Of a stretch of DNA of 42,405 bases, positions 36,595-42,405 are shown in pieces. The notes beneath the pieces were generated by a model. The model saw only the letters and a list, made by a program, of their open reading frames with translations. It searched no databases and was not told the DNA's origin. Both the position numbers and the translations under genes were made by a program. Within the stretch, counting starts at the first letter, position 1; each line of letters starts with the position of its first letter. The stretch is from Nitrospirota bacterium (GTDB lineage Bacteria; Nitrospirota; Thermodesulfovibrionia; SZUA-242): NCBI GenBank assembly GCA_027021335.1, contig JALUUO010000059.1, positions 1 to 42,405 of the forward strand. The letters run 5' to 3'.

Positions 36595-36810
36595 ATGGAA
36601 AGCTACATTGTACACATTTACCGACGGGGTTCCAGCCCTGATTTGCGGAACGACACGGATACTATTGGTATGGTGGAAGGCATTGAAAGCGAGAAGCATT
36701 ATCCATTCACCAATCCGGATGAATTGTGGGACATAGTGACAGGAAAGAATCCGGCAAACTTTGCTGCTGGACAAGATGTTGATAGTAAAAAAGGGAGGGA
36801 TGAAAAATGA
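36595..36810 (+). CDS. 71-residue protein of unknown function, linked to the BTAD regulator
   Basis: A small soluble protein I cannot assign: MESYIVHIYRRGSSPDLRND, then GMVEGIES, PFTNPDELWDIVTGKNPANF, and a charged tail. There is no signal peptide or membrane segment. It is likely real: it has its own leader with the candidate operator, its stop overlaps the start of the HAF-repeat gene (ATGA), and a fragment of a second copy with the same protein pattern (WEIVTGKNPARFAA) is found in front of the RCC1 gene. The GTGGAGG before the ATG could serve as ribosome site. Its conserved pairing with exported repeat proteins suggests a regulatory or folding accessory, which is speculation. Confidence 0.72.
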   Translation: MESYIVHIYRRGSSPDLRNDTDTIGMVEGIESEKHYPFTNPDELWDIVTGKNPANFAAGQDVDSKKGRDEK

Positions 36811-38906
36811 TTAAAACAACACCGGACATGAAAAAATGTTTACCTTTGCTTGGTTGCCTGGCATTATTCATTGCTGCCGGCAACGCCTTCGCGGGACATA
36901 CGCTCTACACAATCACCGACCTCGGCTCTTTCGACAGTACGGACCGCATCAGCACTCCCGCCGACATCAATAACAAAGGCCAGGTGGTCGGTTCCGCTTC
37001 TCACGGTGCCAGTAACAGTGATCATGCCTTTCTGTGGGATCCGGTCAATGGACTGACCGATCTCGGCACTCTCGGCGGTGGACAGAGCAGAGCCCTTGGC
37101 ATCAACGATGCCGGCCAGGTAGTTGGATGGGCAGAGACCGCTGAAGGGGTGACTCATGCTTTTCTGTGGAACCCCGACAGCCCCAACGCTGCCACCGGCA
37201 CGATGATCGACATCGGCATACTTGACAACGGATACTCCAGCACGGCCGAAGACATCAATAACAACGGCCAGGTGGTCGGATGGACTGCTTACAATAGTAT
37301 CTACTCCGGGCCTAAAGCTGCCTTTCTGTGGGATCCGGTCAACGGGATGACCGACCTTGGCACTCTCGGCGGTTTATCGAGTCAAGCCTTTGGCATCAAC
37401 GATGCCGGCCAGGTGGTCGGAACAGCCAAAACCGCTGACTGGGAGTATTCTGATGAGACTAGTGCTTTCCTGTGGAACCCCGACAGCCCCAACAGCGCCA
37501 CCGGCACGATGACCGACCTCGGCCGTCTCGTCAGCGACCTTTATTACTCCTATGCCAGCAGCGCCACTGACATCAATAACGCCGGTCAGGTGGCTGGATG
37601 GTCATACTTTACCGGCTCGGCTTACATTACTGACGCCTTCCTGTGGAACCCCGACAGCCCCAACGCTGCCACTGGCACGATGATCGACATCGGCAGCATA
37701 GGAAGCGCTTCAAACACCATTGACATCAACGAGGTCGGCCATGTAGTCGGGAATTACTTAAGCTCGGTTCAAAATCTTGTCTTCCTCTGGGAAAACGCCT
37801 CCGAGGGAATGATCTACTTTTATTTATCTGATCAGCAACCCCACTATGTATATCCTATCGTTCCGGACGATCCGCTATTCGGGGTGTTTTTTTATGGACC
37901 AGCCGCAATAAATAATAGCGGTCAGATCGTGCTTATGGGTTTGAAGAGTGATAATTCGAGGACCGCTCTGCTGCTGACTCCGACCGACAATGATGGCGAT
38001 GGTACTGAAATCGATGTGACCGACTCCATAGGCGTTGATAACGACCTTCAGATGCCCTTTGGAGACGTAACAGTTGGAATAAGCTCGACGGCAGAGACGG
38101 CAACCATATCAAATGCGGGGAATGCCACTCTCAATGTATCCGGCATCCAGCTTACCGGTGCGGATACAGGGCAGTTCAGCCTTGACATAAACGGAGGCGC
38201 ATCCCCGTGCGGAGCCACGGCGCTGGCTATTGCACCAAGCGGAAATTGTACCGTAACAATTACCTTCAACCCCGCAACAACTGGAGCAAAGACAGCAACC
38301 CTCGAGATCACTTCCGACGACCCGGACGAGGGCACTGTAAACGTAGCCTTAACCGGAACAGGACTTTCGGCAGTCACAAACAACCCGCCTGACCAGCCGC
38401 AACTTGTCTATCCGTCAAACGGTCAGCAGAGCCTGCCGACCACCGTGACCCTGGAATGGGAACCCGTTACAGACCCTGACGGAGACACGGTGAGCTATGA
38501 CGTATACCACTGTACAAGCGCCGATCCGGCAAATAATTGTGAGCCTGCTGCAGTGGCGTTACAGCAAAAAGTCTCAGACAATAGTACTTACTTCGCAGGC
38601 CTCAGCTTTGGAGGTGGAGTATTAATATTCGGAATAACCCTTGCGGGAGGTATAAGAAGCAGGAAACGGATAGCCTTGTTAATTGCAGTGATTGCAGTAA
38701 CATGTGCTCTTGTGGCCTCATGTGGTAGCGGTAACAACGATAGTGTAGGTCAGGATAATAATAATGGACACACACCTGACGACAACAACAAAACCTATAC
38801 TGTCTCAGGCCTTAACTCAAACACCACTTACTACTGGACGGTGATTGCAAAAGACAGCAACGGCGGTGAAACTCAAAGCTCTGTATGGAGTTTTAAGACA
38901 CAGTAA
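36807..38906 (+). CDS. Exported HAF-repeat/choice-of-anchor D/FN3 protein with internal membrane-lipobox segment
   Basis: 699 residues. Signal peptide (KKCLPLLGCLALFIAAGNAFA). From about 35 to 395 there are HAF-type repeats (DINNKGQVVG, HAFLWDPVNGLTDLGTLGG, INDAGQVVGWAET), expected to form a beta-propeller. From about 415 to 520 there is an ASH/choice-of-anchor D-type domain (FGDVTVGISSTAETATISNAG...ITFNPATTGAKTATLEIT). An FN3 domain starts near 528 (PDQPQLVYPSNG) and ends YYWTVIAKDSNGGETQSSVW, but is interrupted at 596-640 by a Gly-rich hydrophobic stretch, RSRKR, a second hydrophobic stretch and VASC (Cys639). A second start eight codons in (ATG at 36828) is possible. It is coupled to the 71-residue gene. 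Function unknown; surface location inferred. Confidence 0.85.
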   Translation: MIKTTPDMKKCLPLLGCLALFIAAGNAFAGHTLYTITDLGSFDSTDRISTPADINNKGQVVGSASHGASNSDHAFLWDPVNGLTDLGTLGGGQSRALGINDAGQVVGWAETAEGVTHAFLWNPDSPNAATGTMIDIGILDNGYSSTAEDINNNGQVVGWTAYNSIYSGPKAAFLWDPVNGMTDLGTLGGLSSQAFGINDAGQVVGTAKTADWEYSDETSAFLWNPDSPNSATGTMTDLGRLVSDLYYSYASSATDINNAGQVAGWSYFTGSAYITDAFLWNPDSPNAATGTMIDIGSIGSASNTIDINEVGHVVGNYLSSVQNLVFLWENASEGMIYFYLSDQQPHYVYPIVPDDPLFGVFFYGPAAINNSGQIVLMGLKSDNSRTALLLTPTDNDGDGTEIDVTDSIGVDNDLQMPFGDVTVGISSTAETATISNAGNATLNVSGIQLTGADTGQFSLDINGGASPCGATALAIAPSGNCTVTITFNPATTGAKTATLEITSDDPDEGTVNVALTGTGLSAVTNNPPDQPQLVYPSNGQQSLPTTVTLEWEPVTDPDGDTVSYDVYHCTSADPANNCEPAAVALQQKVSDNSTYFAGLSFGGGVLIFGITLAGGIRSRKRIALLIAVIAVTCALVASCGSGNNDSVGQDNNNGHTPDDNNKTYTVSGLNSNTTYYWTVIAKDSNGGETQSSVWSFKTQ

Positions 38907-39058: not shown

Positions 39059-40351
39059 ATGAAAAAAGCATTTTTAAATATTTTCATATGTCTGTTTGTT
39101 CTTATTTTTGCCGGTTTGTGGATTGCCGGCGGTGTTGCAGAGGCGCGTTCCAATGGGATGAAAAAAAGGGAACATCATAGGCATCACTCTTCTTACAAAG
39201 TGGACGTACCTAAGGTCATCGCCGTCGCGGCCGGAGGCACCCATACTATTGAGCTTAAATCAGACGGCACAGTTTGGGCGTGGGGATGGAACAATTTCGG
39301 CCAGCTGGGAGACGGGACGACGACAGACAGCCTAGCCCCGATACAGGTAAGCGGACTTACGGACGTAACAGCCATCGCGGCCGGAGATGTCCATAGCATC
39401 GCACTTAAAAACGACGGCACAATTTGGGCATGGGGATTTAACCGTGCAGGCCAGCTGGGAGATGGAACGACGATATACAGCTCTACGCCTGTACAGGTAA
39501 GCGGGCTTACGGATGTGACCGCCATCGCGGCCGGGAGTTATCATTCCATCGCGATTAAAACTGACGGCACGGTGTGGGCATGGGGATGGAATCGTGGCGG
39601 CCAGCTGGGAGTAGAAACAACCGAAACATGCGTGTTTCCCCTTATGGAGTGGTCTTGCTCCACCACGCCTGTACAGAGCAACATCACGGATGTGACTGCC
39701 ATCGCGGCCGGGAGTTATCATTCCATCGCGATTAAAACTGACGGCACAGTGTGGACCTGGGGGAATAACTACTATGGCCAGCTGGGAGACGGGACGACGA
39801 CAAACAGCATCACACCTGTACAGGTAAGCGGACTTACAGACGTAACAGCCATCGCGGCCGGAAATGTCCATAGCGTCGCACTTAAAAATGACGGCACAGT
39901 GTGGACCTGGGGGAATAACTACTATGGCCAGCTGGGAGATGGGACGACGACAAACAGCATCACACCTGTACAGGTAAGCGGCCTTACAGGCGTTGCAGCA
40001 ATAGCAGGCGGAGGCATGCAAGAGTGGTCTACGGGGTATACCATCGCGCTTAAAACCGATGGTACGGTCTGGGCGTGGGGAAGCAACGAATACGGCCAGC
40101 TGGGAGCAACAGTGACAGAAACCTGTTCTGTAAGCTTCGGGCGATGGGGTAGTATTTCTACGTCTTGTTCAACCACACCTGTGGAACTAAGTGGCCTCAC
40201 AGGCGTAGCAGCCATCTCGGCTGGAAATTCCCATACCCTCGCGCTTAAAACAGACAACACAGTTTGGGCATGGGGAGGGAACGAATACGGCCAGTTGGGA
40301 GACGGGACGACGACAAACAGCACCACGCCAGTGCAGGTAATAACTCCGTAA
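39059..40351 (+). CDS. Secreted RCC1-repeat beta-propeller protein
   Basis: 430 residues. A signal peptide ([20 protein letters not shown]) is followed by a basic, His-rich linker ([13 protein letters not shown]) and seven RCC1 blades of about 50 residues, each AIAAG-x-x-H-(S/T)-x-A-(L/I)[18 protein letters not shown]. Seven blades make a complete RCC1 propeller. Blades 3 and 6 carry Cys-pair insertions (TETC...SCSTTPV). Blades 4 and 5 are nearly identical in DNA. It ends TPVQVITP like the RCC1 gene at 1-686. A good AAGGAGGGAG lies before the ATG. No anchor or sorting signal is seen. Eukaryotic RCC1 is a nucleotide exchange factor, but bacterial secreted versions are structural or binding proteins of unknown ligand. 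Confidence 0.9.
39741..39990 (+). repeat. Recent 150-bp tandem duplication of an RCC1 blade
   Basis: 39741-39840 and 39891-39990 differ at only a few positions over about 100 bases, with a period of exactly 150 bases (50 codons). A second pair, about 39516-39572 and 39689-39745, is also almost identical. The changes are mostly silent, pointing to recent unit duplication or gene conversion. Confidence 0.8.
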
Positions 40352-40678: not shown

Positions 40679-42405
40679 CTACCTACCTCTTCTCCCATGC
40701 CTCATTCCTCTTCTGATGCCTATAGTTGTGAATTCAGCACTGATTGTATGGTCAGAGGATACATTTGTAAATGTATAGCTTATTATCCGGCCTACTGAAA
40801 CACCATCAACCAATACATCTGATACCTGATAGCCTCTCCCGGGAGTGATCGTAAAGGTCTGATCACTGCCCGCATCCACAATCACATCGCCCGAAGGAGA
40901 TATACTTCCACCAGAACCTGCTGTAGCCGTAATGGTATAGATGAGTGGACAGTCGGCGGAATCATCCGTATCGGTTAATCCATCGCAGTCGTTATCCTGG
41001 TTATCATCACAAGTGGCTTCCGGACTTTCGGCTGGTGTCCCCGGGGCACAAGTATCAACTTCAGCGCCATCAATACATTTTGTCAGGCCTGTTGCTGCAC
41101 AGACGCCGAGTCCGCAGATGGTGTCGGTTGGCAGATAATTGTTATCAACCACGCCGTCACAGTCATCGTCTCTGCCATTACAGTCGGTGTCATCACCAGA
41201 CGGGCTGCATGCATCTACGGTCAGCGTTCTTTTGCCAGGGCCTTGAGCAGTTCCATTAAGAACGTGTAGGTTCCAGCTTGTTCCGGCGCTGTTGGTTGCT
41301 TTTACATTCCAGGTATATATGCCGTCCGGCAGGTACCTGGTGGCCATGTAGACTTTACCCGGGATAAGGACATCATCCGGTATGCCAAAGAATGCACGTA
41401 GAACAGCTTCATCCACTTGAGTCATAGACAAAGACGAGCTGCCGTCTACATACAGCAAAACTTCGGTAACATCTGGATAGGTGAAACCGCCCGTGGTCGG
41501 CTCCAAAACGCCTGCGACAAAGATCACGTCATTGGTGCTTGTTTCGATGTAGCCATTTTCCGGGTATCCTGAGAGTACTTGCGGCGGCATGATCGTACCG
41601 TCAAATATTGGCAGGCCGGCGGCGTTCCACTCCTGCATCCCTCCCTGATCGTTATTAGGCGTACCGTCGGTGTCAATATTAAACAGATTTGTAAATGATG
41701 AGGTCTCGTTTGTCGCAGGATTTGTGAAGGTCTGACTGTTCATCCAGGCGACCATGTGATAACTTCGGTATGCTGTAGAGCTTATAAGGTATATTGGTGT
41801 ATCAAAGCCTATGATATTGGCTGCAAGAGCGCCTTCTATAATATTCCTTGTCTGGGCCTCGTCCTCGGGCGGACCAGTATTGCGGTTAATGCCGGCATAC
41901 CAGTAGGGCAACGTTATCGCTAGTTTTTCTACACCGCCTACTGCCCATTGCGGAGTACCGGCATAGGCGGCATCGGTATCTATCTGACCGCCACAATTTT
42001 GATCCCATGGCTGGCAATAGCCGTTGTGCTCGTCTACTGTGCGCGTGTCGAACATGACCGCGGTCGGGTCTGTTGTCAGAACATCATAGGCATCCTCGAC
42101 TGATACGCTCTGCACGCCCGGGGCATTTGTTGCATATTTGAGGTCCCAGTCAGTGGAATAAATATCCCAGTCAGTGGTATCAACATAGCTGATATGCACG
42201 TTGTCGTTTGAGTCTATCGCGATAGAGGTATCTCCTGCCCACCCCCCTTGAGCATCAACGGCTTCAATTATCCATGAGCCTGAAGCATTCGTAGCATAGT
42301 TGAGGATGGGTTCGTAGATATTACGATAGCTGATATGCACGTTGTTGCTTGAGTCTATCGCCATGGAGTGATACAATCCTATACGCTCTCCTTCATCAAT
42401 GGTTT
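40679..42405 (-). CDS. Surface protein with rhodanese-like, MopE-like and InlB B-repeat-like parts (N-terminus outside window)
   Basis: The frame is open to the window edge, so the start is missing; about 575 residues are visible. Order: two copies of a propeller-type unit (SIAIDSNDNVHISYVD, LKYATNA), a rhodanese-like domain (VSVEDAYDVLTTDPTAVMFD, TRTVDEHNGY...) whose active loop reads LISSTAYRS, without the usual Cys, then a beta-rich region. Next are two MopE-type Asp-rich, Cys-containing segments (DCNGRDDDCDGVVDNN; CDDNQDNDCDGLTDTDDSADC shortened here to DNQDNDCDGLTDTDD) that look calcium-binding. An InlB B-repeat-like module (ITATAGSGGSISPSG...VLVDGVSVG...FTNVSSDHTISAEF) and a basic tail RRGMRHGRRGR end it. 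No membrane anchor is visible. Likely exported; function unknown. Confidence 0.8.
   Translation of the reverse strand, partial: TIDEGERIGLYHSMAIDSSNNVHISYRNIYEPILNYATNASGSWIIEAVDAQGGWAGDTSIAIDSNDNVHISYVDTTDWDIYSTDWDLKYATNAPGVQSVSVEDAYDVLTTDPTAVMFDTRTVDEHNGYCQPWDQNCGGQIDTDAAYAGTPQWAVGGVEKLAITLPYWYAGINRNTGPPEDEAQTRNIIEGALAANIIGFDTPIYLISSTAYRSYHMVAWMNSQTFTNPATNETSSFTNLFNIDTDGTPNNDQGGMQEWNAAGLPIFDGTIMPPQVLSGYPENGYIETSTNDVIFVAGVLEPTTGGFTYPDVTEVLLYVDGSSSLSMTQVDEAVLRAFFGIPDDVLIPGKVYMATRYLPDGIYTWNVKATNSAGTSWNLHVLNGTAQGPGKRTLTVDACSPSGDDTDCNGRDDDCDGVVDNNYLPTDTICGLGVCAATGLTKCIDGAEVDTCAPGTPAESPEATCDDNQDNDCDGLTDTDDSADCPLIYTITATAGSGGSISPSGDVIVDAGSDQTFTITPGRGYQVSDVLVDGVSVGRIISYTFTNVSSDHTISAEFTTIGIRRGMRHGRRGR
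42140..42369 (-). repeat. Direct repeats inside the MopE-like gene
   Basis: About 42188-42228 and 42330-42369 share TAGCTGATATGCACGTTGT and TTGAGTCTATCGC, the codons of the DSNDNVHIS propeller unit. TCCCAGTCAGTGG occurs twice within 42144-42183. These are coding repeats of a propeller domain. Confidence 0.6.

Follow-up and report, generated by a model that had tools for sequence, protein, structure and literature searches.

The last ~175 residues of a HAF-repeat protein encoded in the window (the whole stretch of 42,405 nucleotides of Nitrospirota contig JALUUO010000059.1 that was analysed) are best explained as a modular C-terminal anchoring tail, a device that probably holds unrelated exported proteins at the cell envelope once the chain has been cut and lipidated within the last domain. 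In the protein, a signal peptide, HAF repeats and a choice-of-anchor D domain precede a C-terminal FN3 domain, and an insert formed by two hydrophobic helices, a basic loop and a lipobox lies in the C'-E loop of that last domain (Table 1). The initial annotation had described a membrane helix, a basic cluster and a lipobox within an FN3 domain, and this was confirmed when the exact positions were re-derived. Its numbering of Cys639 was right, whereas the Gly-rich start that it placed at residue 596 was about five residues too early, helix 1 beginning at residue 601.

Table 1. Features of the tail-bearing protein, with positions in the window and residues of the protein.
Feature	Position	Strand	Residues and remarks
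HAF-repeat/choice-of-anchor D protein carrying the tail	36807..38906	+	699 aa; HAF_rpt 168.7 bits, choice_anch_D 66.7 bits
N-terminal signal peptide, ordinary type, without a lipobox at its end	36807..36893	+	1-29; from the sequence
FN3 N-half, strands A-B-C-C'	38382..38567	+	526-587; Cys569/Cys578 paired; W and Y 99% conserved
YFAG motif and Gly-rich hydrophobic helix 1	38589..38654	+	595-616 (YFAG 595-598; helix 1 FGGGVLIFGITLAGGI 601-616); column conservation
RSRKR basic loop, predicted cytoplasmic	38655..38669	+	617-621; Lys/Arg-rich in homologues
Hydrophobic helix 2 ending in the lipobox LVAS-C (VASC)	38670..38723	+	622-639, IALLIAVIAVTCALVASC; Cys639 codon at 38721-38723; Cys in 95/95 (loci from a model including Cys)
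Polar Gly/Ser/Asn linker downstream of the Cys	38724..38789	+	640-661; composition of ordinary lipoprotein tethers
FN3 C-half, strands E-F-G, reaching the C-terminus	38790..38903	+	662-699; W100, F100, D98 and Y95 per cent conserved

Pfam fn3 called the second half of the domain above its cut-off (residues 656-692, 28.1 bits), and AlphaFold2, supplied with 93 aligned tails, folded both halves into a single FN3 domain with a pLDDT of 95-98, the insert (pLDDT 50-76) forming one short and one long helix. In Foldseek, the best PDB match was one domain of 94 residues that aligned with both halves of the query (TM 0.81, by target). These models suggest that the insert takes the place of the C'-E loop without disturbing the FN3 fold, and they bear out the earlier statement that FN3 strands flank the insert on both sides. 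The core residues of the FN3 fold were 95-100% conserved on either side of it.

The FN3-plus-insert sequence was found seven times in the genome of origin, on seven contigs, and a model built from 23 tails (model A1, E<=1e-15) detected tails in 46 of the 396 Nitrospirota genomes that were sampled; a search of a plasmid collection for the tail gave no match. When only the flanks, the two FN3 halves, were modelled, 95 distinct inserted domains were located, spread with open frames over many genera, along with 11 FN3 domains without the insert, which had 6-20 residues at the corresponding place. The inserted domain was the extreme C-terminus in 95/95 cases, with its C-half ending 0-9 residues from the end of the protein, and one protein of 3358 aa (L143) carried an uninserted FN3 domain plus the terminal inserted one. 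The tail of 'Nitrospiraceae bacterium SURF_66' (L014) was identical to that of a genome of the same class (G094, L037). As regards incomplete copies, the apparent split genes of G204 and G250:C5 were frame-broken copies in MAGs, and two apparent split copies of G308 ended at contig ends. The tails of L087 (1896-2518, +) and L088 (2278-3076, +) were disrupted by a shift of frame, located within the hairpin or immediately ahead of it, being either pseudogenes or sequencing errors, and in L092 (1086-2060, -) a frame like an AMP-binding enzyme was directly joined to the lipobox and the FN3 C-half, probably in a chimeric MAG contig.

The lipobox Cys was present in 95/95 inserted domains, a count to be read knowing that the loci came from a model including the Cys and that 21 of the 23 seed tails had been picked by a pattern requiring it; a member lacking just the Cys should still have been detected, however, because well-formed copies score 110-268 bits. 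Position -1 was Ser, Ala or Gly in 94 of the 95 domains (Ser76, Ala15, Gly3 and Gln1), position -3 was mostly Leu (Leu61), position +1 was Gly in 81, and Gly and Ser occupied positions +1 to +5. The composition of these five residues correlated at 0.85-0.99 with that of 18 ordinary N-terminal lipoproteins of the same loci. The loop between the helices held three to six Lys or Arg residues in 94/95 domains and two in the remaining one, with no acidic residue in 86/95, which is the pattern predicted for a positive-inside hairpin. Helix 1 followed the pattern Y-A-G...G..GLLLFG...G (Y67 or F14, A86, G71 and, within the helix, G84 per cent), whereas the sequence of helix 2 varied freely until the lipobox. 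A role of Cys639 as a disulfide partner was rejected, since the lipobox Cys persisted in domains without other Cys residues in the N-half (two such residues in 69/95 domains, none in 14/95).

The cargo modules of the tail proteins were unrelated to one another and comprised HAF repeats, a reprolysin-like metalloprotease (metzincin), MopE metal-binding repeats, Big_5/FN3 arrays, FG-GAP, SBBP and lactonase-type propellers, and laminin-G, as well as a rhodanese-like domain that was judged by eye from the sequence and called by no model. A signal-peptide-like start was recognised in 61 of the 67 copies with a complete 5' end, and a lipobox was missing from it in 60 of these 61 and present in one. 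A C-terminal tail on varied cargo behind ordinary signal peptides is what one expects of a tail for sorting or anchoring. Elsewhere in the window, the downstream neighbour (39059-40351, +) was an exported seven-repeat RCC1 propeller protein without an anchor tail, and the protein at 40679-42403 (-) resembled, by eye, the N-terminal rhodanese-like part of tail proteins encoded elsewhere in the same genome (L049, L053 and L054), its end being a short basic peptide without the hairpin tail, i.e. similar cargo with a different C-terminus. At L053 (1-1158) and L054 (1201-2550, -) the gene after a tail-bearing rhodanese-like gene was itself rhodanese-like and had an ordinary N-terminal lipoprotein signal, both anchor types thus standing side by side.

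Lgt and LspA are the general enzymes of lipoprotein processing. Candidate processing enzymes were surveyed in 30 tail-positive and 20 tail-negative genomes, with Lgt, LolC/E and rhombosortase sought in eight tail genomes. LspA was found in 49/50 genomes, and Lgt and LolC/E-type genes each in 8/8. Rhomboid proteases occurred in 27/30 tail-positive vs 17/20 tail-negative genomes. Exosortase (20/30 vs 2/20, Fisher p 0.0001) and CPBP proteases (21/30 vs 5/20, Fisher p 0.003) were enriched in tail-positive genomes, both comparisons being confounded by phylogeny. Exosortase was missing from G061 and CPBP from G110, for example, two tail genomes reported as 99-100% complete, and genes of either family could be absent from complete genomes with several tails. 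Rhomboid, exosortase and CPBP were each rejected as the obligatory enzyme because each one was lacking in some of the tail genomes. On the most economical interpretation, the universal lipoprotein enzymes are all that is needed, at any rate for cleavage at Cys639. Surface export of lipoproteins by the GspN-dependent route (PMC12802150) was rejected, as T2SSN gave no match above cut-off in any of the 50 genomes. The genome of origin contained two full-length Lgt genes (C68:41475-42206 and C84:6943-7686; PF01790, 262 and 224 bits), and a second Lgt could serve a special substrate class; six of seven other genomes checked had one Lgt, and G037 had a second, weak copy.

The tail belongs to a known kind which has only been named provisionally and is mechanistically unstudied. 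Residues 583-673 matched positions 14-102 of the 113 of NF058595 (invert_tail, 'lipo-invert putative C-terminal anchoring domain'; NCBIfam release 20), with a borderline score of 32.0 bits by hmmscan and 36.8 bits, or 37.2 with neighbours, in the genome search, for a curated cut-off of 37. Both share the hairpin, the lipobox and the start of the FN3 C-half, and all 95 tails have the C-terminal position with hairpin and lipobox of that model, which nevertheless spans only part of the FN3 domain. Most of the sub-threshold matches of NF058595 that were inspected were ordinary lipoproteins. A literature search on NF058595 or 'lipo-invert' found no paper, and nothing on point for internal lipoboxes. 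Like ordinary N-terminal lipoproteins, the substrates of Lgt and LspA, the tail has basic residues, a hydrophobic helix, a lipobox whose invariant Cys closes the signal helix, and a Gly/Ser tether, but here the signal is internal, ~60 residues from the C-terminus and behind a separate N-terminal signal peptide.

The GlyGly-CTERM/rhombosortase system also places a modular C-terminal tail (motif, membrane helix, basic cluster) on unrelated exported cargo, with many targets per genome (PMC3237569), whereas the tail described here adds a second helix with the lipobox Cys and half a domain. The likeness of the first half of the insert to a C-terminal sorting tail, as noted in the initial annotation, held for the layout (GlyGly/PEP-CTERM-like) and failed for the models: the segment ending at RSRKR matched none of the NCBIfam sorting-tail models, GlyGly-CTERM included, at E<=0.1. 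This, together with the lack of a rhombosortase (TIGR03902) above cut-off in the eight tail genomes, that of origin included, led us to discard identity with that system. In MYXO-CTERM, an invariant Cys thought to be lipidated (Lgt has been proposed) anchors a C-terminal tail at the surface; this Cys lacks a lipobox and stands ahead of the only helix, which has inverted topology and an Arg-rich end, and cleavage downstream of the Cys is by a CPBP protease (myxosortase) (PMC11980579). The two share an invariant Cys with a putative lipid on a C-terminal tail, but here the predicted topology is that of a normal lipoprotein with a lipobox, the Cys comes after the second helix and is followed by ~60 residues of FN3, and CPBP genes are not obligatory. 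The insert domain of the insulin receptor lies inside FnIII-2. This FnIII-2-associated insert holds a cleavage site that yields two chains (PMC7039211), a parallel to the present FN3-associated insert that we use as an analogy only, without claiming homology; in the receptor the insert is soluble, and furin and disulfides are involved.

The mechanism that we favour, and regard as reasonably probable, is processing at an internal lipoprotein signal, after which two chains would remain clasped as one FN3 domain. The protein would be exported by Sec via its N-terminal signal peptide, the FN3 N-half would reach the periplasm, helix 1 would stop transfer and the Arg/Lys loop would stay in the cytoplasm, while helix 2 would re-enter as an internal lipoprotein signal, placing Cys639 at the outer face of the membrane. 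Lgt would then attach diacylglycerol to Cys639 and LspA would cut before it, giving a long N-chain that ends in the FN3 N-half and the membrane hairpin, and a 61-residue lipoprotein with the FN3 C-half. The halves would dock non-covalently as one FN3 sandwich, so that the lipid on the short chain would clasp the large cargo to the membrane, with a net effect of moving the lipid anchor from the N-terminal to the C-terminal end; the final location would be the inner membrane or, should helix 1 be lost as well, the outer membrane. A device yielding two processed chains, as envisaged in the initial annotation, thus fits the invariant Cys, the positive-inside hairpin, the conserved halves and the Lgt and LspA genes, from which we infer the processing itself. 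A stricter form, in which the lipidated half left by the cut inside the FN3 domain would hold the cargo by fold complementation alone, the hairpin possibly being excised, seems possible and is put forward tentatively.

The enrichment of exosortase and CPBP in tail genomes, phylogenetically confounded as it is, speaks against the favoured mechanism, and so does the conserved motif of helix 1, its main unexplained feature, which a plain stop-transfer helix would not need; a further processing step may therefore be missing. Moreover, the lipid would be partly redundant, because the hairpin, if kept, would retain the N-chain in the inner membrane anyway. In an alternative that we consider unlikely, a second protease would also cut helix 1, perhaps at the YA/G motif, removing the whole hairpin and leaving a nicked FN3 domain held only by the lipid of the C-chain and free to go to the outer membrane or the surface. 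The conservation of Y/F-A-G and of Gly positions, in an arrangement resembling that of GlyGly-CTERM, the presence of LolC/E and the resemblance of the cargo to surface proteins are in line with such excision, and remnant signal peptides are usually cleared by other proteases. On the other hand, none of the protease families tested strictly tracked the tail, given the similar rhomboid frequencies and the gaps in exosortase and CPBP, no rhombosortase scored above cut-off in the eight genomes and helix 1 alone matched no sorting-tail model.

It is rather improbable that the protein stays uncut, its Cys unprocessed, and is simply kept in the inner membrane by the hairpin: a hairpin with a positive-inside loop would be enough for anchoring, but a plain two-helix anchor leaves the Cys of all 95 domains, the canonical lipobox and the lipoprotein-like residues at +1 to +5 unexplained. 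A gene-fusion scar, which the initial annotation had raised, a frameshift or an assembly artefact has a negligible probability. A few loci in other genomes (G204, G250:C5 and G213) were indeed broken or chimeric at the tail, but the same insert, C-terminal and in open frames, recurred in the same FN3 loop behind unrelated N-terminal cargo in 95 distinct domains of many genera, and this recurrence refutes such an origin. Because these 95 homologous inserts lie at the same place and all have the lipobox Cys, the insert is far beyond chance.

To the provisional definition of this kind of tail, the present analysis adds that the FN3 domain is split, that the tail is broadly distributed and that no sortase is obligatory. 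If the favoured mechanism is correct, C-terminal lipid anchoring would be achieved by the universal lipoprotein enzymes alone, a split immunoglobulin-like fold would act as the clasp, and the attachment of dozens of uncharacterised envelope proteins of Nitrospirota would be explained.
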